From assembly GCA_002118135.1 (NCBI GenBank), contig BDIU01000252.1, positions 1 to 64,000 on the forward strand: a stretch of 64,000 bases of DNA. The letters run 5' to 3'. The notes beneath the pieces were generated by a model, which had not been told where the DNA came from, searched no databases, and was given only the letters and a program-made list of their open reading frames with translations. This document shows positions 7,083 to 56,600 of the stretch, piece after piece. Each line of letters starts with the position of its first letter. The first letter of the stretch is position 1. This stretch comes from Trebouxia sp. TZW2008. Lineage: Eukaryota; Chlorophyta; Trebouxiophyceae; Trebouxiales; Trebouxiaceae. A program made the position numbers and the translations under genes.

Positions 7083-10000
7083 GTCAGCAGAAGCCTGAGC
7101 AGTTTGTCCATCAAGTCGCCAATGCCCAGCGTACTGCAGCGCCTGTCATCCAGAACCCTAAAGGGGCTGCCGGAAGGGGCGGACTTAGACCTGCCCCTGC
7201 GCCAGATAGCCCTACAGGCCCCGCCAGATGTCATGACGCCCTTCACACAGCGCCTGCAGGTACTGCGCTTGGAGGTTTGTCGCATGTTGGGCCACAATGT
7301 TGACACAACACAGAGTTGTGTCATCATGTCGTGCCATGACATGAAACTTCTGTAATCACCTCATGACACAACACTTGATTTGATTGATCCAGGAGTCATG
7401 TCATGGCACAGCAGTTGTATTGCATCATGGCTGAGATTGGTTTCATTGGGTTGACACATGCAAACAGAGCATGATCAGTAAACTCTCTTTGTAAGGACAC
7501 TCGATATAAGGGCAATCTCAATGTATGGACAATGCCATTGGTAACGAATCACTGCATCCTGACTGCAATAATCCCTGCGAGTCAGAACCATTCCATGTAA
7601 GGACTGTTTTCTGGTAACCAAAGCAGTCGTTACCCAAAGAGAATTTACTGTATGAGCCGTTTTATTGTGCAATCTTTGCTTGCTTGGTGGTATTATACAC
7701 CATACATGCTGGCGCTCCTTAATCATGTCCACAGCGATTGCAGAGCCGGGTGTTGCGCTCTGCATTAGCTGGCCTGTTTCTACTATGCTAGCAGAGACAA
7801 GCAGCAGCTGTGTAGCCTGAATGCGTGTTGCGCAGAACACAAGGGATGGGGTTGGCGGCAGCCTGTTGTGAGGGTGTGCGTGCTGTATTGCTCACACATG
7901 GAAATGCATTAACAAGCAAATACTGAGCCTGATTGCTGTCAACTTTGTGTGTGCAGAACACTCAAAAGGTGAACCTGGCAGCAGCATACAGCGAGGTGGG
8001 GGAGTCTCATAGGTGCATACAGAAGCAATCAACTGCCTCCAAATTGCTTGTTGCATCTATTGCAGAACACGCAAGAGGTGAATTTGGCAGCAGCGTACCG
8101 CCAGGGTGGGGAGTCTGCCTGCCTACCCTGATTGCTTCGTCATCAGCGATATTTGCATGCTTGCCAGCGAGGATCTAGAACCCTTAAGTACACACGGAAG
8201 GAAGCAGCAGCTATGTAGTCTGATTGCTGTCATGTTGGTGACTGCAGAACACGCAAGAGGTAAAACTGGCAGCAGCATACAGCGAGGGTGGGGAGTCTGC
8301 TTGCCCTTCCAGCTTTAGAAGCAGCTACACCAGCACTGCACCAGGAGCCAGGTCAGCTGTTTCACTGCAGCCTTGACTCTATATACACAGTCAATCTCCT
8401 TGCAAGGACAATGTACCAAGAAGCGTGTCCTTGTAACAAGCTGTCTCCACTGAAAGTCTGCAGTGTCTGCTTGCCCTTCCAGCAGAGGCAGCCACACCAG
8501 CACTGCACCAGGAGCTAGGTCAACTCGCGTGTTGTCAACCTTGACTTCATGCATTCAATGTCTTGTCTGCACAATGAAAATAACACAGCTGTACATCAGG
8601 AGCCAGGTCAGCTGTTGTACTGCAGCTCTGAGTCTATATATACAGTCAGTCTCTTTATAATGACAGTTTACCAAGAAAGCGTCCTTGTACCAAACAACCT
8701 TCACTTAAAGGGTCGATTCTACTTGCCCTTCCAACAGAAGCAGCTACACCAGCTCTGCACCGGGAGCCAGATCAGTAGGAAGTCCAATCCTGTAAACTTG
8801 CTGCCATTCCCTGGAAACTCTAGCAAGGGTTTGTGTTGCTCTTGGAGAACAAACAAAACAGTAGGTTGCGTGAATTACACGCTGTACGTTTTGCCTCTCT
8901 GCTGACAAACAGAGGCTTTGAGTGCGTTGCATGGCAGGTGGGCGCAACACAGGGCTGATAAGGAGAAAGCGGGGGGCAGCAGATGCAGCAGGATGCTTTG
9001 CCTTCCTGGTAACGAAACAATCATAACAACAAAAGCGCAAAGCATTGCATGGCAGGTGGGGTTGACAAAGGGCTGGTAAGGAAATCACAGAGGACAACAA
9101 TGATGTCTTCTTGGCAGTAAGTTGCATTGCATGGCAGGTGGGCATGGCACAGGGCTGATAAGGAAAACAAAGGGGGCAGCAGACGAAGCAAGCATGATGA
9201 CATTCTCCTGTGTGGCGAGATAACAGCTTGAAAAGCAGAAGATAAAAACAGATGAGAAAACCAGATTGAAAATAACAGCTAACGTTGTTGTCAACAGCAC
9301 ATCATTGTATGACAGGTGGGCGCGACACAGGGCTGATAAGGAAAACGAAGGGGGCGACAGGCACAGCAAGCATGATGACGTTCTCCTGTTTGGCGAGACA
9401 ATAGCTTGAAAAGCAGAAGATCAAAGCAGATGAGAAAACAAAATTGAAAATAGCAGCTAACGTTGTTGTCAACAGCAGATCACTGCATGACAGGTGGGCG
9501 CGGCACAGGGCTGATAAGGAAAACAAAAGGGGCGACAGGCACAGCAAGCATGATGACGTTCTCCTGTTTGGCGAGACAATAACAACAATATCTTGAAAAG
9601 CAGAAGATCAAAGCAGATGAGAGAACAAGATTCAAAATAATAGATGATGGCGTGTTCAACAGCAGATCACTGTATGACAGGTGGGCGCGGCACAGGGCTG
9701 ACAAGGAGAATGAAGGGGGTGGCAGGCGCAGCAAGCATGAGCTAGAAGCCCGCCACAGGCAGAGGCAGACTCACACCCTGCTAGGTAAGCCCCTTTGTCT
9801 TAAGATGTCAAACGTCCCATTTGCTTCTTCACAGTGTGCGGAGTCACAGACATCAACTGCAGCACAGACATCAACTGCAGCACAAGAACGTGATCAGTTA
9901 CAGCATTGGAAGCCGCCGGTCTCCCAAGATGTCATCTGCTGCATGCACATAGGCTGCTAGGTGAGCCCCTAGAGGTTGAGCACTTAGATGTTGTATGTAT

Positions 10001-12777
10001 GCAGTGGACAGAAGCAGCATTACATGCTGCTAGGCAGGTGCCCTGCCTCCAACATCTCAACTGCTTCATGCGTGTTGCGTCAAGCAGAAGCAGATTGCGG
10101 TCTTGTGTGCAACTCAGGTATGTTTTGGTAACATATCGGATTTGAACCCACGACTATGTTACAGTGTCATCATCTGCTTCATGTAAGCGTCAGGTGAAAT
10201 CAAACCCCTGTCCAAGATTGGGACCCTGTGCATACACAGGATTGAGGATCCAGCCTAAGCCAGCTTTCTGTTCCAGGCACTTGCATAATTTTGCATGCTG
10301 TGCAGGTGGCGTGCGTATTCCGCTGGAAGAGCTGCTGCAGCAGCCAAACCAGACGCTGAGCTTTCCTTTGTATGACAACAGCAAGCAGATGGCTGGCAGC
10401 ATTCAGGTCGGTGTCTGTTCCTGTGCAACTCTCGACATGCGCATGGTCATCTTGAATCCACATCTGCCTGACAATACACAGCAACAGTAGATAGTGACTT
10501 TGCAACAGGATGTCGTTAGGCCATAAGCTCTTCCAGCAAGACACGTGTTCTGCCGTTTGGTGTATACATGTCGGCCCCACATACCTAGTACGTGCGCCAC
10601 AAGGAGTCATTCGTTGTGTTGTCACAGTCATGCTTGTTTTGTGTGTGGCTGATTTAAGGACTGGCGTTTGATGTTGCAGGTGAGGTGTGAGTTTGTGGCC
10701 TGTTTGAGGGAGGGCTGGCTACAGTATAGGAAGGAGCCCAAGAGCATGATGAAGGGCTGGAAGGTTGGCTGGTTTGAGCTGTTAGCTGATGGCAAGCTCT
10801 CCTGGTTTCCCTCACCCAGCAAGGTGCCCAGTGAAAGCAGGTATGTTTAACACCATGACATGAGCAAGATTCCAGATGCAAGCAGGTATGAGGCCTGCAA
10901 TGACATACAATTGTTCCAGTGAGAGTACGTGTGAGTAATGTAGCACATAGCAGAGTTCCAGTGAATTCCGGTACGGGTAGTGCAGCTTTGCCATGGCTTT
11001 GGACCCAATCATGTGGAGGCAGTTGATTTCCTACGTATGCATTAGGCAGGGCTGCGCAATCTTATCAGCAAGCATGCAAAAAGTGGTGATGCTGACAATA
11101 ATGCAGTAAACTCTCTTTGTACCAACTGCTTTGGTTCCTAAAACAACTGTCCTTACATCAAATTGTCCTTACTCAGAGGAACTGCTGCAGTCAGAAAGCA
11201 TTGACTGGGCACCAACAGCGTTGTCCTTCCATCAAGATTGTCCTTACGTTGAGTGTCCTTACAAAGAGAGTCTACTGTAACATGAGCAGGTCGATGTCCA
11301 GCTGTAAGCTGTGTGGGTCCCCTTCATGCGCTGTAATGTTGCTTGATTGATTCTTTGACTGATACCTGTGCTCGGGCAAACCCAAAGTTGCTTGGTGGGC
11401 ACTTGGCAAACATTGATGTTGTTTATTGGTGAATATTCGGCCATTCTGCATGTGTGAAATGCAAGACGCAGGCAATATTGAAATTTTAAGCATGCACATG
11501 GCCCTCCCAGATTTGAGCACATCAGGCAGACAAATCATTGTGGCATGTTGGAGGAGATGGCTGCAGTCGTCAGGCCCCACTGCAAGAAGGATGTTGTTTG
11601 CGTGTTGCTTGTTCCTGAGACTCAGGGTCACTGAGATAACAATCAGCAGCCCATCAGACTGCCAATCAACACTACGCCACTTGCTCTGTTGACCCTGAAC
11701 AGCTCCTTTGAGAATGTTGATGCTGGGTGCAAGTAGCATCTGCATTATGGGTCTGACACAACATCAAGCACTTCTGACTAGCATAGCAAAGCTAATGTAG
11801 CCTGTCATCAATATTGTGAGGGCTTGAATTGCTGAAAGGCGTGGCTGACACCCAAAATCTTGAGGCCTTTTCTGGTCAGGGTTTTGTGGGACTGTCATGT
11901 GTCTACAGCCATAAGGACCCTCTTCCAGGGCATGTCGCTATTTGTCATGTGCCCAAAGCTGTCCAAAAGCAAATATGTGATCCCTGGGAAGTTTGTCATG
12001 CTGCATGCACCAGCATACAGACACATTTGCAACATTTGCTGCTTGGGGTGTCCCCTCCGCACAGCAGTGAAGTTTTCAATCTCAAGTCAACTTGCTAATG
12101 CCTTTGCAGAGGGCACACACACTTGAGTTGTATCAAAGCAATTCGATTTGTCTGCATCATCTGCTGCTTTGAGTCTGCACTCACAGCACACATGCACCCT
12201 CTCAACAGTTGGCTAATGCCCTTGCAGACGGCAGATACATTTGAGCTACATTGAAGCAACCGCAATTGTCTGCACTATCTGCTGCGTTCAGTCTGGCCTC
12301 TCAGCACAGGTGGACCTTATGCACCGCAACAATTTGCTAGTGCTAGTTGCAGAGGGCAGACACACCCAAGCTGGATTGAAGCAAATGGGTTGAGTCTGCG
12401 TTCACAGCACAGGTGCACCATCTCAACAGTTGGTTAATGCCCTTGCAGAGGGCAGATACATTTGAGCAGCATTGAAGCGATGGGCCTGGCAACTGCTTAC
12501 AAGCATACTGTGAACGGGCGCAGCCACCTAGAGGTTCACCACAGAGTGGCAGGCAGCAAGTTGCTGCAGATTTTGAGTATTAAGGCCAATCACCCTGATG
12601 ATGCTGCACTGTGGCTCAGAGACATGCAAGCAGGCCAAAAGGTGAATGCAATGCTTGGTGTTTGACAGCCTGATTGTGCGATCTGATGTACATTGTGCAA
12701 GTACGCTGTGCAATGTTGTATCACAGACGGTCATTCCCAGTGATGAGGATGCCAGCATGTATCGCCTTTTTGCCTAA
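7083..12777 (+). CDS. C2 and PH domain protein (5' part unresolved)
   Basis: Likely a phospholipid-binding membrane adaptor. Secure exons with matching phases are 10306-10406, 10680-10840, 12449-12641 and 12727-12777 (stop TAA). They encode the end of a C2 domain (GVRIPLEELLQQPNQ, then GSIQVRCEFV). A PH domain follows directly: EGWLQYRKE, GWKVGWFELLADGKLSWF, then GQIHLSSIEAMGLATAYKHT, and the closing helix HPDDAALWLRDMQAG with its conserved Trp. The protein ends with Ser-Met-Tyr-Arg-Leu-Phe-Ala. Exon 7083-7259 (Ser/Leu-rich, LPLRQIALQAPPDVMTPFTQ) is open in phase and probably belongs here. Exons between 7260 and 10305 remain unresolved among arrays of exon-like copies. Specificity for particular lipids cannot be read from the sequence. 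Confidence 0.78.
7476..7650. mobile_element. MITE with CAGTAAACTCTCTTTGTA terminal inverted repeats
   Basis: The left end CAGTAAACTCTCTTTGTA is matched by the right end read in reverse complement (CAGTAAATTCTCTTTGGGTA). The element is 175 bp and noncoding, flanked by AT and TA. Ends beginning CAGT resemble Tc1/mariner/pogo-type termini, so a TA-targeting superfamily is plausible. No transposase is present in the window. Confidence 0.75.
7955..8330 (+). repeat. Three copies of an exon-like segment (NTQEVNLAAAY type)
   Basis: Copies start at about 7957, 8065 and 8246. Each has a TGCAG acceptor-like edge followed by about 40 bp reading NTQEVNLAAAY or a variant, then a GTGGGG or GGTGGGG edge. 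They lie within the C2-PH gene. One may be a real short exon and the others decayed duplicates; sequence alone does not decide which. Confidence 0.6.
8300..8800 (+). repeat. Copies of a second exon-like segment (EAATPALHQE type)
   Basis: Segments near 8306, 8472, 8585 and 8728 share CCCTTCCAGC, then GCAGCCACACCAGCACTGCA and GGAGC. In one frame they read EAATPALHQE. They are interleaved with degenerate MITE fragments (about 8390-8420 and 8640-8700). At most one is expected to be a true exon of the C2-PH gene. Confidence 0.55.
8925..9780 (+). repeat. Six tandem copies of an exon plus intron block, last copy open
   Basis: Blocks beginning with GCAGGTGGGCGC or a variant start near 8929, 9047, 9134, 9313, 9488 and 9675; the last three spacings are about 175-187 bp. 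Only the last copy continues as a long open, charged segment (ENEGGGRRSKHELEARHRQR) ending at a GTAAGC donor near 9786. This follows the rule that acceptor-side copies lie upstream of the functional exon. The open copy is probably a real exon of the C2-PH gene, but its joins are unproved. Confidence 0.65.
11104..11277. mobile_element. Second MITE of the same family
   Basis: At 174 bp it is almost the same length as the copy at 7476. The left end is CAGTAAACTCTCTTTGTA. The right end in reverse complement is CAGTAGACTCTCTTTGTAAG. The interior keeps repeated GTCCTTAC motifs. It lies in the C2-PH gene intron between the exons ending at 10840 and starting at 12449. Confidence 0.8.
12080..12448 (+). 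repeat. Upstream copies of the PH-domain exon acceptor
   Basis: Blocks containing GCCCTTGCAGAGGGCAGATA or a variant occur near 12100, 12222 and 12350, ahead of the true acceptor at 12447-12448. Each copy carries the polypyrimidine-poor acceptor plus the first 25 or so exon bases and then diverges. Confidence 0.75.
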
Positions 12778-21442: not shown

Positions 21443-24400
21443 ATGCAGTACAGTCTAGCTCGATCAGTGACTCCGACAAAACCTTGCATACGCGTACAGC
21501 GATCGTGTAATCGAATCAAGTGCACTACTCATGTCCGAGCTTCAGTTCAGACAATAGCTCGGCGAAAAGCATCGTTTTCGAGCCGCTTCAGCACAAGCAT
21601 GCCACATGCAAGTCCAAGCACGCGTCGGGACCTCAGTGCGCGCGCTGAGGAAGGTGAAGGCCTCTTGGTACGTCTGCATAAAACGATAAGTCAACAGCAA
21701 TTTCGCTGATGCGTGTCGATTCGACGGTCGACTTTCGGGCCGTGATCACATAACATCTTTGCTGCACCATACCTGCATATGGAATATATCATAAATACTG
21801 CCGCTACAAAACAAGAACCACTGTGATTGCTGCAGAACAGCATGCCAACGTAGCACTTGCTATTGCGCTGGCGCGTGACTCAAACTCTGGATTCACACGC
21901 ATAGCCTAACACATGGTTACTCATAACATGATATGATCTTCAGGCAGCGTCAGGAGAGCAGACAGCAACAGCGCCATCACCAGCGCGGCAAGTTGACTGG
22001 GTCATGACATCTCTTGTGTTCCTGTTTCCTGCTATTGGTGGGCTGCTGTTCGGTTATGACATAGGCGCCACATCTGGAGCACTGGTATCAATCACTAGTG
22101 AGCAAACATCTGGAACAGACTGGTAGGCATTGCTTACATTTGAAGCATACTTGAGCTGCAGGCACTATACACATCATTAGTTATGTCATTGCGTCACATG
22201 TCAAATGCTTTCAGAGCTCAAGTTTGTTATGTTTGCATGGTGTGTGTATTCCAACATGTGCATAGTCATGGACAGGTTACTCAAATGATTGCAATGAAAA
22301 AACACAACAGTCTGTCCCCATTCAATTCATGCCTGGTGGTGAGCAGCAGCCTGTCTGAAAAATGTGCCTTCTCAAGTGCAGGTACAGCCTATCTCCCTTT
22401 AAGTCAGGCCTGGTGGTAAGCAGCAGCCTGTTTGGGGCCCTGGCTGGCTCAGTGGGGGCCTTCCTCTTTGGAGATAAGCTAGGGCGACGAAAAGAGCTCA
22501 TGCTAGCAGCCTGCCTGTATGGTGTGTAGTAGCAAGACAGGGGCCATAGCAGCACACAGTGATGGGCATGTATGGTGTATGTCTTATGACAAGCCTGCTC
22601 GCATGTCTGCAAAGATATAGTAGCAAGCCTTCCTGTTGCGGGACGAGCTAGGGCTCATGTTGGCAGCCTGCCTGTACGATGTGTGCATGAACAGGCCCTT
22701 GCATTGATCACTATATTACACAGTGACTGTCCCTTCATGCATCTGTGCCTTTCTTTGGACAAGCTTGGGCAAAGGAAGGAGCTCATGCTAGCCCATCTGT
22801 ACGGTGTGTGTGCGTGAACAGGCCCTTGCATTGGTCAGTGTGTTACACAGTGACTGTCCCTTCTTGTATCTGTGCCTTTCTTTGGACAAGCCTGGGCAAA
22901 GGAAGGAGCTCATGCTAGCAGCCTGTCTGAACGGTGTGTGTGCGTCAACAGGCCCTTGCATTGGTCAGTGTGTTACACAGTGACTGTCCCTTCTTGTATC
23001 TGTGCCTGTCTTTGGACAAGCTTGGGCCAAGGAGAGAGCTCAGGCTGGCAGCTTGACTGTACAGTACAGTGTGTATGCAGTACCAGGTCTATGCACTTGT
23101 TATAGCACCGGTCACACTAGCATGCATGTCAGCAGCTCGCAGCACTTAGCCTTTTTGTCTGGAGATACGCTAGGGCAAAACAATCGAGCCTTTGTACCAA
23201 CTTGTGTCACCAATGTATTGTTTGATTGCAGGTGCAGCAGCAGCATCACTGCTGGTAGCGCCCAGCTATCCTCTGCTGTTGGCTGGACGCGTCACCTATG
23301 GGTTGGGCATAGGCTTTGCCATGCATGCAGCCCCTGCCTACATTGCTGAAACGGCCCCTGCCTCAGTGCGAGGCCTCCTAATCAGGCAAGTCCTAGTGGA
23401 TTTGAAAGCATGCTGTTGGCTGGTTGCGTCACCTATGGCTTGGGCTTAGGTTTTGCAATTCATGCAGCCCCTGCATACATGGCTGAAACGGCCCCTGCAT
23501 ACATTGCTGAAACGGCCCCTGCATCAGTGCAAGGCCTCCTGATTAGGCAAGTATCTTAGCCTTCATTAGAATGCTCACTCATGCACGCACTTCTGCTATG
23601 CATGCAGCCCCTGCCTACATTGGGGAAACAGCCCCTGCGTCAGTGCGAGGCCTCCTAGTCAGGCAAGTCCTACTGTATCTGTAAAGCATGCTGTGGAGTG
23701 GTTATGCTATTGGTGTTGAATGCTGTCTTGTGCGTAGTCCCCGCCTACATCGCTGAAACAGTCTCATCAGTGGTTTAATTCTGACCAGGACTGTCTGGGG
23801 TGCAGTCTAAAGGAGGGCTTCATTGTGGATGGGATTTTGCTGGGCTACTAAGCCTCAGCCCACTCATGAATGAGGGTGGGAAGGAGGAGATAATGGGGGG
23901 AGAGCTTCTTGGTCTCCGTGCTTTCATGCTAGTCAGACCTGCACAAGCTGATGAGTTTGTACTGCTTGTGTTACAGTCTTATGGAGGGATTCATTGTGGT
24001 TGGGATTTGCTGGGCTACCTGGCATCGGCTCTGTGGATGGGGGGTGAAGGTGGGGAGCGGGGTGTTGGGCTGGGTGCTTTCATACTTGTCAGGTTTGCAT
24101 GGTGTGTTGATCTGTACTGCTTGTGTTGCAGTCTTAAGGAGGAATTCATTGTGGGTGGGATTTTGCTGGGCTACTTGGCCTCAGCCCTATGGGTGGGGGA
24201 GGAGGGGGGCTGGCGCTACACGTACTGCGTGTTGTCTAAATGCTGGGCTGAGATTGTGGGCACAAGATGTCTGCAGACACTATGACATGCTGAATCGTGC
24301 ACATGAAACTGCTGATGAAATTGCTTGGGGTGCAGTCTGAAGGAGGGATTCATAGTGGGGGGCATCCTACTAGGGTACCTGGCATCAGCCCTGTGGGTGG

Positions 24401-27400
24401 GGGAGGAGGGGGGCTGGCGCTACATGTATGGGGCGGCCCTGCCCCCAGCCCTCCTGCTCCTTGCCGGCATGGTCAGCACTCTTCCTTCTTTTCAATTTTT
24501 GTTCTTCTTCTTCTTTCACTCATTGGGGCTGGTGCTGCTGGTGCTACATGTACAGGGAGGCCCTGCCTCAGGCCTTCCTACTCCTTGTTGCCATGGTCGG
24601 GCCTATTTTTCTCTTCATGTGATCTTTCCTGTGATCTATGTGATCCAGCTTTCCCATTCGTCTCTTGGCAGGCAGGAGGCACGCACCTGTCACCTGCTTG
24701 CATTCACTTGGGCGTTGATGTAGATTGCTGATGTACAAGTCTAGCAAGCCTTCACTACTAATCGCTGATATGACAATTGCACAAGCAGCCAGGCAGTATC
24801 GCAGGGAGGAAAGGCATGCATTTCTCCCATTGCCCTCCCATGGACACTACAGACTACTGAAGCACAAGCCCACTGATCCGTGACTACCTGCTGAAATAGC
24901 GTTCCCAGAGGCAGCCACGCTGTGCAACAAATAATGCGTGACTTTCACCGGCTTGCATTCATCTAGCACTGTGGGTTGTTGCTTTGAAGGCAGCAATCCC
25001 TGGCTGCCTTTAGACAGAGGCTCCCGTTATGACGCCTAACGGCATAGACTTTTCTTTTCTTTCTTTTCTTTTCTTTTCTTTTCTTTTTCTTTTCTTTTCT
25101 TTTCTTTTCTTTTCTTTTCTTTTCTTTTTCTTTTTCTTTTCTTTTCTTTTCTTTTCTTTTCTTTTCTTTTCTTTTCTTTTCTTTTCTTTTCTTTTCTTTT
25201 CTTTTCTTTTCTTTTCTTTTCTTTTCTTTTTCTTTTCTTTTCTTTTCTTTTCTTCTCTTCTCTTTTCTTTTCTTTTCTTTTCTTTTCTTTTCTTTTCTTT
25301 TCTTTTCTTTTCTTTTCTTTTCTTCTCTTTTCTTTTCTTTTCTTCATCTAGGGGCCAAGTGCAGCCTACTGATGTACACTTCACCTGGTTCCTGACCAGC
25401 GACTGCTGATGCAGTCAACTGAGCTGACCAGCAACTGCTGATGTGACGATTCTATAGGCATGGTTGCCAGAATCGCCAAGGTGGCTGCTGCTTTCTGGGG
25501 CATCTCGGGAACAGGCAGAAGGGGCAGTCAGAAGGGCCTGGGGCCGTTCTGCATCAGACAGCCAGGCAGTGCGGCAGGAGGTGTCCAACATGCTTACAGA
25601 CAAACCCTCTTCCTCAGGTGAGCTTTGGGCCTTTTGCACAAGTCCAAGCACTGAACCAGCTGTCAGTTTGCACTGGTGACATTGCCATTGCCTGTCTAGG
25701 CAGGAGGTGTCCAACATGCTTACAGACAAATTATCTTCCTTAGGTAACCTTTGGGCCTTTTGCACAAGTCCAAGCACTGAACCAGCTGTCAGTTTGCACT
25801 GGTGACATTGCCATTGCCTGTCTAGGCAGGAGGTGTCCAACACGCTTACAGACAAATTATCTTCCTTAGGTAACCTTTGGGCCTTTTGCACAAGTCCAAG
25901 CACTGAACCAGCTGTCAGTTTGCACTGGTGACATTGCCATTGCCTGTCTAGGCAGGAGGTATCCAACATGCTTACAGACAAACTATCTTCCTTAGGTAAC
26001 CTTCGGGCCTTTTGCACAAGTCCAAGCACTCAACAGGCTGTCAGTTTGCATTGCTGACATTGACATTGACTGTCCAGGCAGGAGGTGTCCAACATGCTTA
26101 CAGACAAACCATCTTCCTTAGGCACTCAACAGGCTGTCACTTTGCATTGATGACATTGACATTGACTGTCGTGGCAGGAGGTGTCCATCATGCTTACAGA
26201 CAGACCCTTTTCCTCAGGTAAGGTGTGTTGTCCAACATGCTTACAGAGAAACCCTCTTCCTCAGGTGCAGTATATTGGCATCCTGCATGAGTCCAAGCAC
26301 TGACAACCTGTCGTCTGTTGTGCATGACTTGTATAGGCTGTGGCCCAAGATGCTTGCAGACAAACCTTCAGAGCGAAGGTAGCTTTGGGGCTTTTACCTG
26401 AACCGGAAAGCAAGCATGCATGATATGAATATGGATGCTGACAGTCATGGAGTTACTGATCCTTCTCTGCATCTTGGGCTATGCTATGCACATGGTTCAC
26501 ATATACACAGACATAGCTGTGAAGATTGACACACATAGACATGCGAAAACACTTAGTGGCGATGCCTCTGAGGGTGATTTGGGAGCACTTTCAGGGACCG
26601 CAACGTGAAGCCTCCACTGCTTGGTAGCAATTTCATGTCATTCCAACAGATCGGTGGACAGCCATGCATGCTATACTATGCTGCCAAGAATTCCATAGGG
26701 GCACAAATACAGACGTTGATTCATACTGTACCTGCAGGTGGTTTGGGAGCACTTTTCAGGGGCAACAATGTGAGGCCTCTCCTTATTGGCAGCAGCCTCA
26801 TGCTGTTCCAACAGATCACTGGACAGCCAAGCGTGCTGTACTATGCTGCAAAGATCTTCAAGGATGCAGGATTTTCCTCAGACGCTGATGCTACTAGGGT
26901 GTCTGTTGTTCTTGGATTCTTCAAATTGGTCATGACAGGTGAGCTTCATGCCTGTCATGACAACATGTACATATCTGCGTGCTGTCATGATAGCATGTAC
27001 ATGTCTGTGTTCTGTCATGATAACATGTGCATGTTTGTGTGCTGCATCATGCTGCAAAGATCTTGAAGGATGCGGGGTTTTGCCTCAGAGGCTGATGCAA
27101 CCAGAGTGTCTGTTGTTCTCTGCTTCTTCAAACTGGTCATGACAGGTGAGCTGCATGCTTGTCATGGTCAAGATGTCAATTTCAGTCTGTGCATGTCACT
27201 TTCACAGTCAAGACGTCTGTTCCAGTCTGTACATGTCACTTTCATAGTCAAGACGTCTTTTCCAGTCTGTGCATCTCACTTGAGCTATTGCTTTTGTTGC
27301 ATACCTGTCATGGCAAGATGTTCATGCAACATCTCGATTTGCAACATATACATGCAAATGTATGCAAATATTTGCAAACCTATGCCTCCTATCTCAACTC

Positions 27401-30400
27401 ACATACAGATCTATGCATGTGAGCCGAGATGCTGTGCTTTGGAAGTTTTGTGAGCGACAGCATCTGTTCTTTGCTTTTCAGTTCTGTTGATTTCATCTCG
27501 GATCCTCCCTGATTCTCTGCAGGAGTGGCAGTAGCTGCAGTAGACAGTGTAGGGCGGCGGCCTCGGTTACTATGGGGTGTCTCACCCCTGGTCCTGTCTC
27601 TACTGACCCTGAGTGGTGCCTAAGCCTACTCCTTTGTTTTCAATTCCCTTTTTTCCCTTTTCCTGTTCAATCCTGTGTAATTTGTTGTGTATACGTTCTA
27701 CAGGGGCGGCAGTGGCAACAGTAGACAGTCTGGGGTGACGGCCTTTGCTTTTATGGGTCGTATCAGGGCTTGTGCTGTCTCTATCGGCCCTATTCCAAAT
27801 TCTGTCCCTCCACCTTCAACGCGCTCCTGTTCACTTCCCTGCTTCTGTTCTGCTACAGGTGGTACAGTGGCAACAGTGGACAGTGTGGAACGGAGGCCGC
27901 TGCTGCTGTGGGGTGTATCAGGGCTTATGCTGTCTCAACTGGCCCTAGTCCAAATTGTGTCCCTCCACCTTCAACGCGTTTCTGTTAACTTCCCTGCTTC
28001 TGTTCTGCTACAGGTGTTGCAGTGGCAACAGTGGACAGTGTGGGGCGGAGGCCGCTGCTGCTGTGGGGTGTGTCAGGATTGGTGCTGTCGCTACTCGCCC
28101 TGAGCGGAGCTCAAAGCCTAGCCAAAGGCGATGTTGCAACCTGGGTCAGCGTGGCAGGCCTCCTCACTTACACAGCCTCCTATCAGGTAACCACAGCAAC
28201 TGCAGCGTGACAAACCAAATCACACAGCGATAATGACAAAAAGCCAAATCACATACTAGAAATGGCCAAAAGCCTAGCCAAAGCCGATGTTAGCGTGGCA
28301 GGCCTGCTCACTTAGACAGCCTCCCATCAGGTGTTTGTTATGATTACATGCATGCATTTACATGGCGATAGTCCAATAATAAGAGCAGATGGTGACTCTA
28401 TACTGGCCATAAGTATTGCTCAATCCCTTGCCAAAAGCGGTGTGGCGACCTGGGTTAGCGTGGCAGGCCTGCTCATATACACAGCATCCTATCAGGTATG
28501 CATTTTTGATCACATGCATGCGTTTACATGGCCAAAGTTGCATCACAAGTAGATGATGACTCTGTACTGGCCATACTTGTTGCTGAAAGCCTGGCCAAAC
28601 TCAATGTTGCAGCCTGGGTCAGCGTGGCAGGCCTGCTCACTTGAACAGCCTCTTATCATGTGATTATTGTGACAGGACTGAAAGAAACCAACTCACACGG
28701 TGGTAACAACAACATGCCTAGCTACAGGTGATGTGGCAACCTGGGTTGTTGTGGCAGGGCCTGCTCCCTTGCACAGCTTCCTGTCAGGTTTGCGCCGTAA
28801 CTATATGCAAGCCATTACATGGCTACAGTCATGTGGTGGTGACTCATAGGTGTATATCACACAGTTGTTAGCAGGGCAGGCCTGCTCATGTTCATTTCAT
28901 TTCAGTTATCTTTTTCCGCTTCAAAAAGAAATGGAATGGAATGGAATGGAATGGAATGGAATGGAATGGAATGGAATGGAATGGAATGGAATGGAATGGA
29001 ATGGAATGGAACGGAATGGAACGGGATGGGATGGAACGGGATGGGATGGAAAGGGATGGGATGGAACGGAATGGAACGGAATGGAATGGAATGAAATGAA
29101 ATGAAATGGAATGAAATGAATCCTATTGGTTCTGCATTGTGAGTACAGTGGCATCATCAAAGGGACATGCCAATTAGGATACAAGTATTGTCTTGTAAGC
29201 ATCAGCCACCGCGATGAGCAGACTCGCGCAGTGATAGGCACAGCAATCTAGTCACATACCTGGCAGTGAGTTTGGCTGATATGGCGAGTTATATCTGCTT
29301 GTGTGCATAGTGCACAGTTCAAAGTCTGGTTCACATAGCATTACAGGCAAGTGAATGTGCTGATGATGCTTTTGGTCATGTCTCAAGTAATGGACCAAGA
29401 AACAGAGTGAAGAAAACAACCACAGACCAGCAGAAAATGCGGTTGCACAAAAAACCCAAACATCGTAACATTGTGTCATGCCTGCCTGCAGGTCAGTTTT
29501 GGCCCCATCAGCTGGCTATTGGTAGGAGAAATTTTCCCACTTTCTGTCAGGTGGGATAGCCTTCAACATTTGTAATGACTTGGTTGACTTCTACCAGAAC
29601 TCCAATGCAAGAACAAGCTGCATGCATATGGTACAAGCTGGCTGTTTTGCACTCCATACTTGATGTGCTGCAGCCTCACAGGTGTGTATACAGCATGCAA
29701 TCGCTGTCGGTGCATGCTGTGTTGATAGGCCAATACGTATGCTACAATCAAGACTGTTGCTGTGTGATCCATAAGATCTGGCAACACCACTGTGCAGTTG
29801 TGATGCATCCTGTTGCGTCAAGCATGTCCTCTGATGTTGATAGCGTACATGGTATGGCAGGATGACGTGTATCTCGTATGATGTGAGTGATAGGCATCTT
29901 GTCTGCTGAGACAAGTTGGGTTGCAAAATCGCGTGCACCAGTTGTTCACCTTTGCTGACATTGGTGGTGCAGGGGTCAAGCAGCAGCTTTTGCCACCTTC
30001 ACAAATTTTGGATCAAACTTTTTGGTGAGTGTTACGGACATTCTGAGGCAGTGCTCTGCCTCATTCCTGTTGTGCAGCCGCCAAGCGGTTCTTGAGTTCA
30101 AAGCCAAGCCAAGTCTACGGCAATGTCATGAGTCCAATGCATGCCATAAGGCTGGTGCATGATGCTGTGTTTTGTTTGCAATGTACACATCCACTGCTAG
30201 CAGCAGTGGGTTGTACAAGTGTGCATGAGCTCCTGTACAATGCAAGCTCGACCTGGTTGGTGAGATTTGTGTCTTACCTGCAGCATAATTATGGTTCTGC
30301 TTACTGCGGTTGACATCAAGGTCTGGTCCAGCTTCATCATGACGATTCATTGCACAACAAAGTCGCTTGAATACAGTTGATGTGTGAACTTAAAACGTGC

Positions 30401-30689
30401 AACCCCTGAGCCTGCTTCTGCTCACAGAGGCTCCTGTTTAGATGCCTAAAGGTGCACTTCCTTCTAGAAGATCGTCTTTGTTATTCTCAGATTGGCATGT
30501 GCATCTCGACAGGTGAGTCTGGTGCTCCCCACATTGGAAGACAAGGCTGGTTTGGGAGCAACATATCTGATTTTTGCTGGCATTGGGGTTGTCTCTGTGG
30601 CATCAATATGTGCAACAGTGCCTGAGACTAAAGGCAAGACATTGGAAGAAATTGAGGCCTTATGGGTGGAGCAGGATAAGGGGAGCTGA
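21443..30689 (+). CDS. Plastidic sugar/H+ symporter, MFS sugar-porter family
   Basis: Twelve-helix MFS sugar transporter most like the plant chloroplast D-xylose-proton symporter-like 3 group (Arabidopsis At5g59250), so probably in the plastid envelope; the substrate is not certain. Eleven exons join in phase: 21443-21667, 21944-22122, 22382-22521, 23232-23385, 24336-24471, 25458-25617, 26738-26938, 28014-28186, 29492-29550, 29973-30024 and 30513-30689, giving 551 aa. Exon 1 is a Ser/Arg-rich transit peptide. Motifs in order: GGLLFGYDIGATSGA, FLFGDKLGRRKELM, GRVTYGLGIGFAMHAAPAY with YIAETAP, LPESPRWLL, LFQQITGQPSVLYYA, VDSVGRRPLLLWGVS, FGPISWLLVGEIFP, TVPETKGKTLEEIE. All sugar-porter signatures are intact. 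The intron at 23386 has a GC donor (GCAAGT). Introns are filled with copies of neighbouring exon edges and two pentanucleotide microsatellites. Confidence 0.95.
22620..23060 (+). repeat. Donor-side copies of symporter exon 3
   Basis: Roughly four copies of the end of exon 3 (the segment encoding GRRKELMLAACLYG and the following GTGTGT donor) begin near 22645, 22750, 22876 and 23000. The last three are 126 bp apart. All are downstream of the true exon. A short acceptor-side copy (GCCTGGTGGTGAGCAGCAGC) lies upstream at about 22332. Confidence 0.85.
23386..23790 (+). repeat. Donor-side copies of symporter exon 4, with GC donors kept
   Basis: Copies of the segment encoding HAAPAYIAETAPASVRGLL recur at about 23408-23550 (with an internal duplication), 23598-23664 and, truncated, 23738-23770. 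The first two retain the AGGCAAGT GC-type donor seen at the real exon end. Confidence 0.88.
23800..24335 (+). repeat. Acceptor-side copies of symporter exon 5
   Basis: Three copies of the segment encoding LKEGFIVGGILLGYLASALW start near 23806, 23970 and 24130, ahead of the true exon at 24336. The first has an in-frame TAA and the second a deletion. The third remains readable through the GGWRY motif, then diverges. A donor-side copy of the same exon lies downstream at about 24538-24600. Confidence 0.9.
24990..25047 (+). mobile_element. Short dispersed element (GAGGCTC...GACGCCTAA family)
   Basis: The core CAGAGGCTCCCGTTATGACG continues with CCTAACGGCATAGAC and a pyrimidine tail. Related copies occur near 30425, 31263, 32215, 44778 and 63950 on this strand and near 50518 in reverse. 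The short conserved 3' end with a simple tail suggests a SINE or a SINE-like retroposon, but no pol III A and B boxes were recognised. Confidence 0.5.
25047..25347. repeat. (TTTTC)n microsatellite, about 300 bp
   Basis: Nearly pure TTTTC repeat with occasional length variants, in the intron between symporter exons 5 and 6. It begins exactly where the dispersed element's pyrimidine tail would be. The long Lys/Arg/Glu and Phe/Ser/Leu frames across it are artefacts of the repeat. Confidence 0.97.
25618..26300 (+). repeat. Six donor-side copies of symporter exon 6
   Basis: CAGGAGGTGTCCAACATGCT-type segments recur at 25701, 25827, 25953 and 26078 (period 125-126 bp), then in shortened form at 26175 and about 26226. 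They match the last 43 bases of exon 6 (25575-25617). All lie downstream of the true exon, and each keeps a GGTAA- or GGTGA-like donor. Confidence 0.93.
26585..27150 (+). repeat. Copies flanking symporter exon 7
   Basis: An acceptor-side copy lies upstream at about 26590-26700 (NVKPPLLGSNFMSFQQIGGQ instead of the true NVRPLLIGSSLMLFQQITGQ). A donor-side copy lies downstream at about 27045-27145 (repeating the end of the exon through LVMT and GTGAGC). The true exon is 26738-26938. Confidence 0.9.
27520..28013 (+). repeat. Three acceptor-side copies of symporter exon 8
   Basis: Copies begin near 27522, 27703 and 27858, each with a CAG acceptor. The first reads VAVAAVDSVGRRPRLLWGVS without interruption to a TAA just after LTLSGA. 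The second has a stop early on. The third reads TVATVDSVERRPLLLWGVSG but lacks a donor. The true exon (28014-28186) is the 3'-most. Confidence 0.92.
28260..28800 (+). repeat. Four donor-side copies of symporter exon 8
   Basis: Copies of the segment encoding SLAKGDVATWVSVAGLLTYT lie near 28265, 28420, 28585 and 28715. The second (about 28420-28497) is uninterrupted and ends in a good GTATGC donor. The others have stops or indels. All are downstream of the real exon. Confidence 0.9.
28930..29120. repeat. (GGAAT)n microsatellite
   Basis: About 190 bp of GGAAT/GGGAT pentamers, purer at the left and degenerating at the right, in the intron between symporter exons 8 and 9. The unit is the same pentamer as vertebrate satellite III, presumably by chance. 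Confidence 0.95.
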
Positions 30690-38442: not shown

Positions 38443-41400
38443 CTACCTGTAGACAGATTGCAAGCAAGAGCACTCTATTTGTAGCTGTTGCGCCAGCCAC
38501 AGCTGTCTAGACTTCATGAATGTACTCAGGCAGCAGCTGTCGCTTGAATGATCTGCCTCAGCAGCATGCTGGAAGATAGCCTCAAAGACTGCTGGCTCCA
38601 TCATAATGCCTGAGACTTCCACCAGTTCCCTGCCAGAAGCACAGTCATCTGACATTGGTCACACCAGCATTCAAAGACTTAGGACAATGTGACCGCACTG
38701 TACCTCTGCAAGCAAAGCTCTGAAGCACGAGCAGTGCTTGTGTAGCTAGGTATAAGCTATTAAGGCAACATTGGCAAGCAAGCCCTCACAAATGCTTGGT
38801 CGTCAGGTTGGCATCAAGCATGCCCACTCTGGATGCAGAAAAAGCCCTTCAAATGCACATATCTAGGCTCAGCATTATTATTATTATTAGGCTCAGCATG
38901 TGCATCATCACAGCAGCAGCAGCGGAGGAACCTTGGCACAGGCACAAAATTGCAGCAGGTACCTCATGACATGGACAAAGATGCAAAACGTGATTCATGG
39001 CATGAACAGATACGCATGCAGCACATGCACTGTGGCATGAACAGACACAAATGCAGCATGTACCTCATGGCATGCATGGACATCTGCTCCTGATACTGCT
39101 GCTCAGCAACTCCCCGGTCTGCATTTGCTGCAGGATTGATGAGCTGCCTAGAGTTTGGCTCATTGCCGTAGTTCTGGGCATTTGCAATGGACTGCTTCTG
39201 AGGCCGCTTGATGTCATGACGTACTGTGGGCACCCCATAGATCTGCATGCGTAAACAAGCTGTTTGGGAAACCATACTTCTGAAGTAGCAATTGCAAATA
39301 AGCTGCTGAGAGTTGGGCTCATTGCTGTAGTTCTGGGTATTTGCAGTGGACTGCTTATTGAGGGCGCTTGATGTCATATCATACTGTGGGCACCCCATAG
39401 ATCTGCAGGCGTAGACCAGCTGTTTGAAGAAATACACTCCTGAAGCAGAAAATCTAAATTAGCTGCACGAAATTGGTCTCATTGCCGTAGTTCTAGGCAA
39501 TTGCAATGGACTGCTTCTGAGCACGCTTGATGTCAGCCTGTGGGCACCTCATAGATCTGCATGCGTAAACAAGCTGTTTGGGGAAACATGCTTTTGAAGC
39601 AGAAATTGCAAATAAGCTGCTGAGAGTTGGGCTCATTGCCATAGTTCTGGGCAATTACAATGGACTGCTTCTGAGGGCGCTTGATGTCATGTCGTACTGT
39701 GGGCACCCCATAAATCTGCAGGCATATCAAACCTGTTGAGGACAGGCTTGGCAGAAGCAAAAATTGTAAAGCTGATGAAGCACTGTTGCAATGAGTATGG
39801 GCTGTAGCAAAGCTGTGAACAACACCACTGGGCATCAGTGCTGATGTTACGCAATTGCAACGAGTGCAAATGTCAAGCAATAACTTGGCAAGAGCATTCC
39901 AGGCACCGACAGCAAGGCATTTGCTGTGCGCACAAGAATCCAAAAAGTTATCGACTGAAGTGGGACACGCACAATGCACTGGGCAGCTCTTGCAGTGTGC
40001 AGGGCTGACGGCAGTGTGCGGGGCTAAATGCAGTGAGGCAAGGCTGAATGCAGAGGTGCAGGGCTGAATGCAGCAGGGAAGGGGCTGAAGATAATGAGGC
40101 AGGGCTGTATGCAGCTGGACAGGGCTGAATGCAGCAGGGCAAAATGCACCGTTTCAGGGCTGAATGCAGTGTCTTATGCAGTGGATTGAGGGGAAGGGGG
40201 GTGGGGGAAGGGTCTGACCCTGCCAGCAGGTCCCAGATTCCTCCAGCCCTCCTTGACACTCTTGCCCAGGTCAGCGTCATCTTGAAGCTGTTCTGGAGAA
40301 TAGTCACCCTTCAACAATACGCTTGCACCGCCAGCCTCGTGCTTTGAGGGTACGCCAAACACATGACTGGCTGGCAGCTCCCTGCATGCGAAACACAGGA
40401 GTGAGATGAGGCAGGCTGGCAACATAGCACAGCAGGTCTTCTGCTGCAACAGCTTTCCTGCAGGCCTGGCTATTTGGCCAGCATTCGTCAATGCGGGCAG
40501 CCCCAGGCTTGGAGAGCATGCCCTTTCGCTTTTTGCGCTTCAGACTCAAAGGTCACTTGTGCACGAGAGTATCTGCAACACCACTCACACCTAAGCTGAT
40601 GCATATGCTGCAAAATTTCGCACAGAGTGTAGTGGTCACAGTCGATGCTGCTGAGGCTTTTTGTGCTTGCTGATTGGTAATTGCATTTAGCATACGTGTA
40701 GACTCAGCCTGATGTCCCTTTTTGCATGTCATCTGTAGGCTGTCATATTGAGACATTTGCACTTTGCATATCTGCAGCACTGCCAGAGATGCCTTCATGA
40801 ATCAGACTGCTGTGATGAAGAGATTTTGTTGCAGTTGTCCTGCTGCAACACAGGTGCAATTAGGTGGTGTGATGATGGTGGTCACAGAACAATGCAATGC
40901 AACCTTGAAGCAATGCAAGCTTGAACAATGCAATGCAAAAGCAAGACGCAAGAAAAGGCGTTCCGCTCACATGAACCCGTGCATCAAACAACTAACTGAA
41001 TGTGGCTGACCTGCCAGCCATGCCAAGACGTTTGACTTGACCCAGCTCATCCCTAGTGGCCTCCTGAAAGTCCTGCCACTGTTTGCCGCACAGCACGGCA
41101 CTACTAGCCTCTGCCTGTTGTCCTGGCTGGAGCGCCTGCCTAAGCCCGTCATGCTGATCACTCCCAGACTCCAATCCTGCAATGGCAGCAAGATTGACTG
41201 ACCCATTTCCAAAAGCTGAACTGTGAAAATAAGCCATGCACATCTGATGTTTGGGCTACAAAGCTGCTGGACTCTGGAAATCTTGGACTGCTTGCCGCAC
41301 AGTATTGTGCTACTAGCCTCTGCTTGCTGTCCTGGCTGCAGCGCTTGCCTCAGCCCATCATGTTGATCGCTCCCACACGCCAGACCTGTAGCGCTAACAA

Positions 41401-53600: not shown

Positions 53601-56600
53601 GACAATGAGCAACCAAGTGTCATTGCATTGCTGCAGTGCTGATGCTAGGGAGGGTCAGATTATCCTGAGCCTGCTGGATGATCTGACCCTCCCTAGCATC
53701 AGCACTGCGACACTGCAATGACATGTAGTGATTCATGTGTTGTTGTTATCACCAACAAGGTGTTTGCTGCTTGCATCTGTCAGGGCTGCCTGGGCCTGAC
53801 AGCAATCACGCTGTCGGTAATTGACAAGCTGATTGCTGTCAAAACAGTGAGCAATGAAATGTCATTGCATTGCAGCAGTGCTGATGCTATGGAGGGTCAG
53901 ATGATCCAACAGGCTCAGGCAGTCCTGACAGATGCTGGATGATCTGACCCTCCCTAGCATCAGCACATCAGCAATGAAACAACTCGTAGTTGCTCATGTA
54001 TTGTTACTACAAACACATGTCAGGGCTGCCTGAGCCTGCTGCTTGCTTTGACCCTCTTGAGCATTGGCAACGCAGCAAGGCAATGATACGTACTTGATGA
54101 ACACAATCATCATTGAGAAGAAAAGGAAAGACTTGACAACTGATTTTGCTGCTTGACCTGACCCTCCCTAGCATCAGCACTGCAGCAAGGCAACGGTATC
54201 TAGTTGATGGTTCAGCATCATCAATGATGTGACAGTTGAAATAAGTATAATCACCACCATCAAAACCATTACCATTGTTATCACCAGCATCAACGGTCAC
54301 TGATGATTAAACATGGTACACTTTGACATGGGTTTTTTAGCATGACTACTGATTGATGTGCTGAAGGCACTTCACACGTCACAGCATGAAGGCACTCAGT
54401 GCAATAGAGTGCACCTGGTCTTGACAGTTGTAGCAACAGCCACAGCTGTATCACACTCACAGTGCAGCTACCTCACACCCTTTCACACATAGCTACATCA
54501 AGGCACTGTGCACAGGAAAGAGTACCTAGTCTTGACATTTGCAGCAGCAGCATGTCACGTGTAGACTGCAGCTATGGCACAAACTATTCACGCACACACA
54601 AATACACAGAGATACTCAGTGCATTAAAGTATACCTGGTCTTGGCAGTCGTAGCAGCAGCCACCCCTGTGTCACGCTCAGACACCTCTTGTGTGACAGGC
54701 ATTTCTGATACAATTGCATGAAGGCACTCAATGCTGTAAAATGTACCTGGTCTTGGTAATTTCAGCAGCAGCCACAGCTGCGTCACGCTCAGACACCTGT
54801 TGTGTGACAGGCATTTCTCACACAATTGCATGAAGGCACTCAATGCTGTAAAATGTACCTGGTCTTGGCAGTTGTAGCAGCAGCCACCGCTGTGTCACGC
54901 TCAGACACCAGTTGTGTGACAGCCTGCTGCAGTTGCAGAACTTGGTTGCGCGCCGCACTCAGCTGCTGAGACTGTGCTGTAGCCAGCTCCTGCTTGAAAG
55001 CATGGTCGGCATGACAAGCCATGGCCTTGGCATCCTGTATGACAGCAAACACATTTGACTGCTGCTGTGACGGCCACAAAGGCATGCTGTGGCCAGGTCA
55101 TGCAGGATTGCGCCTTCCACAAAAATTTCCCATGGCCTTTGCATCCTGTACATGCTGCATCTGTAATGTGATGTGCCATTGCTTTAGCACCTGCATCACG
55201 CACATTCCAATGCCGTTGTGAAGACTACAAACATGCTCATGACAAAGGTGAGATTGTGCTGTAGCCAACTCCTGCTTGAGTGCATCGGTTGCATGCTGAG
55301 CCATCGCCTTGCACCCTGCAATACATGAAACACAATTCTATGCTGTTGTCAAGACTACACAGACATGCTGTAGCCAGGGTGTGCTGGTTGCATCGTTCAC
55401 ATGATGAGAGCCATGTCCTTGGCGTCCTGCATGACATCACATAATTTCCACGGTGTTGTGAAGTCCTCACAGGCATGCTGCAGCCAAGTGCTGTGCCATG
55501 GCCTCTGCGTCCTGCATGACATGACACGCACCTCCATGCTGTTGTGAGTCCTACACGCAGCATGCTGTAGCCATGTCAGGCTAGATCACAGCTTCCACAT
55601 GCAGCTTCCGCATGATGAGCCATAGCCCTTGCATCCTGCATGACATGACACACAGCTCCAAGCTGTGGGTATGACGACTTCACAGGCTTGCTGCAAGACA
55701 TCTTTGACATGATATCCCATGGCCTTTGGCCCAGAAGACTTCGGACATCACATGGAGAAGGTGCACCCGGGCATGATTTGGCTGCGCCATGCCCATGTAG
55801 TCTTTGTATAGCATGGAGTTGATGTCAACATCAGGCTCATTCTAATGCTTCTGGTGTGATGTGCATTGTTCCTTCTTCTCTCTGTGACGACGCAGATACG
55901 CCCATGGCAGGCTGAGAGATGCTAAGTTCCCCAGCAAGGACAAGTGAAGACCACTGCAGTGGCATAAAGCATACATGATTTGGATCACACCATGGACTAG
56001 CTTCAGCAAATGCTGTGAAAATGGCGCACTGTGCAGGACTCTGGCAGAAAGCCCATTGGGGCAACATGCATTCACAGACTACTTGACAGGGGCACATGGC
56101 ATTCAACAAGTGCAACAATACTAGCATAGGCTTTGACGGCAGAGCATTGCAGACAACAGACCAGCATGAGCATGCGATTTGAAGCGTGACATCATAGAGT
56201 TGCAGATAACAAACCAACATCAGCATGCACTTTACAGAGACGTGCAGTTCTCACCTGCTCAGGAATGCCTCTGTCAGTGAGCCACTTTGCAAAGCTGTCA
56301 AAGCTCAGGGTCGCTTGCTGTGGCGCTGCCTGCTGAGCTTTCAAGCCCTGCAGATCTGCACAACAAAAACATGAATTTAGTACAGCATGGGATGAAGATC
56401 AGTGCAGCACTCAAACAGGTACAAGTGCCTCTGAATGTGTTGTAATGCCACCCAAAGCTGTCAAAGCCCAGGGTTGCTCACTGTGGCGCTTGGTGCTTTG
56501 CTTTCAGATCCTGCAGGTCTCCACAACAAAGACACAAACTTGTTTTGGCATTGATTTTCTCAAACAAACATGATTGCCTTGATGAATATATTGTGATGCT

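Follow-up and report, generated by a model that had tools for sequence, protein, structure and literature searches.

The long introns of a sugar symporter gene in the green lichen alga Trebouxia sp. TZW2008 contain many decayed copies of the adjoining exon edges, and all of these copies lie on a fixed side of the exon from which they derive. The gene occupies positions 21443-30689 on the plus strand of the window, the stretch of 64,000 nucleotides (nt) from contig BDIU01000252.1 that was analyzed here. The original prediction for this stretch, made from the letters alone, stated a side rule: copies of an exon start lie upstream of the real exon and copies of an exon end lie downstream. Our analysis indicates that the copies and the side rule are very probably explained by ordinary local tandem duplication together with selection for an intact protein.

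Exon-edge copies and the side rule

The 11 exons of the gene were compared with the 64-kb window by self-BLAST (E 0.01), with the reversed window as control. Among the 30 non-self matches, 28 are inside the gene, each within the intron that adjoins its own exon, and all 28 keep the side rule: the start-type copies lie upstream of their own exon (8/8), and both the end-type copies (16/16) and the mid-exon copies (4/4) lie downstream. The two matches outside the gene are 21-22 base pairs (bp) long (E 0.003 and 0.007), and the reversed window gave 0 matches. Ten edges bear copies, namely the starts of exons 3, 5, 7 and 8 and the ends of exons 3, 4, 5, 6, 7 and 8. Copies occur in all six introns of at least 700 bp (introns 3-8) and in intron 2 (259 bp); none were seen in introns 1, 9 and 10 (276-488 bp) at E 0.01. 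Introns 3-8 total 6,146 bp; local direct repeats make up 3,485 bp of this, and 3,372 bp (55%) belong to families with exon sequence among their members. The predicted content of the large introns was thus found, end copies lie downstream at the very edges that had been named, and the rule has no exception among the in-gene copies. The statement that start copies always lie upstream with an acceptor is correct as to side, but only 6 of 8 retain the acceptor AG: the copy of exon 3 has lost it, and in that of exon 7 it is displaced.

Self-BLAST and repeat scans placed the copies as follows. Intron 2 carries the start-type copy of exon 3 (22382..22521) without its acceptor AG at 22307..22357 (82% over 51 bp), and intron 3 carries four copies of the exon 3 end plus intron sequence, in units of about 130 bp, at 22650..23062. 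Exon 4 (23232..23385) is followed by a GC donor (GCAAGT, 23386-23391), and copies of its end lie in intron 4 at 23411..23759; both donor-bearing ones keep GC, so the GC donor is probably older than the duplications. The same intron holds three start-type copies of exon 5 (24336..24471) at 23806..24224, all with acceptor AG (73, 79 and 85% identity). Intron 5 has an end-type copy of exon 5 with its donor at 24537..24617 and only 104 repeat bases; part of its length is supplied by a CTTTT microsatellite (25049..25344) that is not exon-derived. Downstream of exon 6 (25458..25617), six end-type copies and one mid-exon copy occupy 25699..26385 of intron 6, where a start-type copy of exon 7 (26738..26938) also lies at 26574..26689 (79% over 117 bp). 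Intron 7 contains an end-type copy of exon 7 with its donor (27039..27176) and three start-type copies of exon 8 (28014..28186), all with acceptor AG, at 27525..27946. In intron 8, the end of exon 8 has four copies that carry GT (28269..28787), and there is a long AATGG microsatellite (28930..29118), again not exon-derived.

The exon model, which was assembled by hand, is completed by exons 1 (21443..21667), 2 (21944..22122), 9 (29492..29550), 10 (29973..30024) and 11 with the stop codon (30513..30689); it comprises 1656 nt with the stop and encodes 551 residues in one open frame. The product matches Pfam Sugar_tr (E 7e-104), its best sequence match among solved structures is the D-xylose-proton symporter XylE (E 1.5e-65), and by this similarity it is a predicted XylE-like sugar symporter. 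The nearest named protein is P0001 from Trebouxia sp. C0009 (84% identity over 90%), and P0003 shows 78% identity at a query coverage of 100%. Gaps between the model and each of five aligned algal homologs are at most 4 residues, and no unit-sized insert was seen when the spliced model was aligned with the five protein homologs, which would speak against the gain of a new intron. The start of exon 1 rests on a single protein, since P0003 alone of the five homologs extends into the first 50 residues.

The side rule is also kept in other genes of the same genome. The assembly searched comprises 68.5 Mb in 527 contigs; passages of PMC11523091 and PMC12712428 give 63-74 Mb and a GC content of about 50% for published Trebouxia genomes. 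For Trebouxia sp. A48, the genome paper states that annotation drew on transcriptomic data. Pfam searches for sugar-transporter, chaperonin and kinase families gave 207 listed matches, 99 of which lay within the fetched sequence (187 kb) and were tested, and 24 further Pfam matches were left out. This sample is non-random, with loci cut around the top matches (no more than 30 in each family) and a view of about 1.5 kb on each side of each cut locus; copies were classed by the half of the matched segment from which they derive, Pfam ends not being exact exon ends. Edge copies were found at 15 of 98 other Pfam-matched coding segments (18 edges on 12 contigs), and the 35 counted copies all follow the rule, with 17 start-half copies upstream and 18 end-half copies downstream. 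Six of 41 rows were dropped: one inverted match at zero shift, one overlapping another Pfam match and four with the query C73:132270-132422, a segment that is left out of the 98. With the sample reversed as a control, 1 match was obtained.

Arrays in the gene have units of 130, 126, 155 and 164 bp, and two of them cross junctions unbroken and head to tail: the 126-bp array runs from position 25573 inside exon 6 into intron 6, and the 155-bp array continues from intron 7 into exon 8. The gene therefore contains direct tandem units that span an intron-exon boundary and, as in minisatellites, units arranged head to tail that measure tens to hundreds of bp. These junction-crossing arrays and the local direct copies support the predicted recurrent tandem duplication of short junction-spanning segments, and we infer tandem duplication as the mutational mechanism. 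Across the 28 edges of gene and sample, listed by hand, nearest-copy shifts range from 77 to 227 bp with a median of 143; exon size and the detection limit shape this range, and thus no argument about nucleosomes is drawn from it. At the 18 sample edges, the nearest-copy run relative to the shift is 0.83-0.98 at five and exceeds 1 at another five, which have several copies. Arrays with a period of at least 20 make up 22.8% of the gene; the figure is 7.2% for the remainder of the window and 4.0% for the sample. The gene is an extreme rather than a typical case, because it was originally picked for its copies.

Elsewhere in the window, further arrays with 76-178-bp units lie at 9131-9740, 12094-12308, 54614-54922 and 57611-57835; the array at 54614-54922 was looked at by reading frames only, which gave no result. 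Another, at 39142-39723, has about 3.7 units of 154-160 bp, and its minus-strand frames repeat the segment GVPTVRHDIKRPQKQS...NYGNEPNSQQL, so that this could be a further array of exon edges, belonging to a second gene.

Origin and order of the copies

In the proposed explanation, segments of roughly 75-230 bp would often be duplicated locally and in tandem in this genome. If the duplicated segment spans a single junction, the messenger RNA would remain unchanged as long as splicing picks the copy still attached to the exon body, which would be the downstream one at an acceptor and the upstream one at a donor. The other copy, consisting of partial exon and intron flank, would be stranded in the intron on the outer side and drift neutrally, and each event would lengthen the intron by one unit. 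Repeated events, and later duplications within the array, could then produce long introns made of exon edges. To judge from the sequence, splicing presumably uses the innermost sites. Because head-to-tail duplication of one junction leaves the spare copy outside only, provided that the protein is kept, the side rule tests tandemness and protein retention, and both pass; it is not evidence of a process aimed at junctions.

The original prediction had read the side rule as the signature of a new, gene-wide process. A special mechanism that preferentially duplicates exon edges, such as R-loop breaks or splice-linked recombination, would fit the presence of copies at ten edges of a single gene, the 3,372 of 3,485 repeat bases of introns 3-8 that belong to exon-including families, and the high array content of the gene relative to the rest of the window and the sample. 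However, local direct copies are no commoner at Pfam-matched segments (16/99) than at random segments outside Pfam matches (29/124), which may contain unseen exons. Moreover, when the observed unit lengths were placed at random in a simulation, one-junction duplications accounted for 73, 59 and 43% at introns of 150, 250 and 400 bp, respectively, and whole-exon events for 7.3, 5.6 and 4.1%; random placement alone thus makes one-junction events the largest class at 150- and 250-bp introns. With no excess at edges, and with the side rule following from any one-junction tandem duplication that keeps the protein, the rule falls short of being the signature of a new process, and we regard junction targeting as unlikely.

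Outward growth of the introns was also claimed; in its strict form, the innermost junction copy would be duplicated each time and age would rise with distance from the exon. The identity of the exon 5 start copies does drop with distance (85, 79 and 73%), that of the exon 8 start copies nearly so (86, 76 and 76%), and by hand count 4 of 10 families have the innermost copy as the one most similar to the exon, compared with about 2.7 by chance. Identity in the exon 6 end copies shows the opposite trend (91, 89, 91, 96, 93 and 97% from inner to outer), and the six end-type copies downstream of C525:10456-10722 (locus L012), spread over 1.2 kb, do not fall in identity with distance. In a pooled order test on ten families of at least three copies (6 of 7 exon 6 copies used, sums by hand), states shared by outer copies only accounted for 11 of the 46 informative sites, where a random order would give about 10.2, so that this small test revealed no outward age gradient. 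Furthermore, the spacing of the C73 copies alternates between about 151 and 191-194 bp, which indicates a two-unit array. Strict outward growth is therefore improbable, and the arrays seem to turn over in the manner of minisatellites.

Drift of the copies and constraint on the exons

Raw mismatches between copies and exons are biased to the third codon position (9.9/9.8/26.5%), and 59% of them are synonymous compared with 28% expected. Polarizing over several copies explains this excess, since it belongs to the exon lineage. Changes that set the exon apart from all copies number 4/1/17 by codon position in the gene, with 20 of 22 synonymous and two not, and 3/0/10 in the sample. In contrast, changes confined to one copy are spread nearly evenly, with 35/35/44 in the gene (74 nonsynonymous and 40 synonymous) and 46/41/54 in the sample. 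States common to some copies against the exon are rich in third positions (6/12/42 in the gene and 26/21/59 in the sample), as would follow if copies had separated at various times from an exon lineage under constraint; some of these states are shared because one copy was made from another, as in exon 6. The copies thus change near-neutrally while the exon is constrained, and two further claims are borne out, namely that the outer copies drift and that the protein, with its one open frame and largely synonymous exon-lineage changes, stays intact.

These data also bear on the view that selection maintains the copies as alternative or mutually exclusive exons. The raw third-position excess could be read in this way, and 15 donor and 6 acceptor copies still have a splice dinucleotide that looks usable. 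That reading of the excess was rejected once polarization had moved it to the exon lineage. In addition, the copies are truncated, and of the 21 copied splice sites tested, 20 would, if used, run the extended exon into a stop, and the remaining one would shift the frame. Neither a whole-exon copy, as in tandem mutually exclusive exons, among the counted copies of gene and sample nor coding constraint on the copies was found, and we consider selected alternative exons very unlikely.

Introners are reported mainly in fast-evolving lineages, green algae among them (PMC9860276). Dispersed insertion, whether of introners or of retroposed pieces of exons, has next to no probability here, as has an artefact of assembly, and neither found support: among the best-scoring candidates, copies occur only beside their own exon, direct and one-sided, this gene alone was matched when four DNA queries (exons or units) were run against the 68.5-Mb genome, with no near-identical introns across many genes, and identities of 72-98% are unlike misassembly.

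Several observations weigh against our explanation by tandem duplication and protein retention. The nearest-copy run is just 0.2-0.72 of the unit at 8 of 10 gene edges, exceeding 1 at two, and 0.26-0.78 of the shift at 6 of 18 sample edges, with two more lacking a value of their own; the rest must therefore have gone by decay or deletion. The simulation expects about one whole-exon copy per ten one-junction events, and 0 were counted at the 28 edges. Units of the exon 6 array share derived states, so that copies of copies also arise. The synonymous share of one-copy changes (35%) is slightly above the 28.5% expected from all gene codons, and low-level use of outer copies in splicing is possible. 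Finally, the dropped query C73:132270-132422 (locus L056), if a real exon, would have a start-type copy downstream and break the rule. This Pfam kinase match covers profile positions 118-168 only, whereas its neighbor at 131817-132080 covers 118-204 with a far better E-value; because of its narrower coverage and far weaker E-value, we take it as a truncated copy of that neighbor.

Implications and comparison with known systems

Transposons are usually credited with the lengthening of introns. Here, a transposon-free route accounts for over half the length of six long introns in one gene, and the same route touches 15 of 98 sampled coding segments. Constrained and drifting copies stand side by side and provide a built-in neutral control for studying constraint, duplication rate and splice-site choice among near-identical competitors. 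Such copies may also mislead gene prediction, as the kinase match at C73:132270-132422, which resembles a truncated copy of the adjacent exon, illustrates. More tentatively, and with the odds somewhat against it, recurrent junction-crossing tandem duplication could be a leading source of intron length across the Trebouxia genome, with introns serving as a neutrally decaying archive of earlier states of the adjoining exons, in which past synonymous substitutions could be read from a single genome.

Minisatellite or variable number tandem repeat arrays are built of head-to-tail units. The present arrays share this organization, and the sampled array on C73 is a two-unit one; unlike minisatellites, their units start within coding sequence and include splice sites. 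Zhuo (2007) reportedly treated introns arising from tandem arrays, and Gao and Lynch (2009) are said to have treated ubiquitous internal gene duplication; both reportedly concern internal tandem duplication as a source of intron sequence and may cover more of the present pattern than is apparent here.

Among the papers listed by our searches of open-licence PMC articles, we found no report of gene-wide junction-copy arrays. In a term search of the Trebouxia genome papers PMC11523091 and PMC12712428, "exon" and "tandem" were absent and "intron" occurred once, in one of them. The original statement that the pattern had not been described agrees with these searches as to this density of copies, of which they showed no report, but does not apply to a single boundary-crossing duplication, which is in print for the potato RdRp gene (PMC4974935).

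A well-known route to new introns is the tandem duplication of exonic AGGT (Rogers 1989 and Hellsten 2011, as recounted in PMC4974935), with Drosophila cases of gain via exonic tandem duplication described in PMC2891723; it resembles the present case in that splicing neutralizes a tandem duplication and the spliced-out copy carries premature stops. By that route, as these passages present it, introns are born inside exons, whereas here existing introns are lengthened by units that themselves contain intron sequence; intron flank is part of both the 126- and the 155-bp unit, and neither a wholly exonic unit nor a new intron in a former exon was found. A close counterpart is potato RdRp, where, according to the portion of PMC4974935 concerned, tandem genomic duplication across an intron-exon boundary created a new intron. 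There as here, the duplicate joins the 3' side of an intron with the 5' side of the next exon and includes the branch site and acceptor. In potato, however, a new intron formed with a donor drawn from exonic sequence of the upstream copy, whereas in the Trebouxia gene the old intron absorbs the outer copy, and does so at many edges; what appears new here is this density of copies and the contrast of drift and constraint within one genome.

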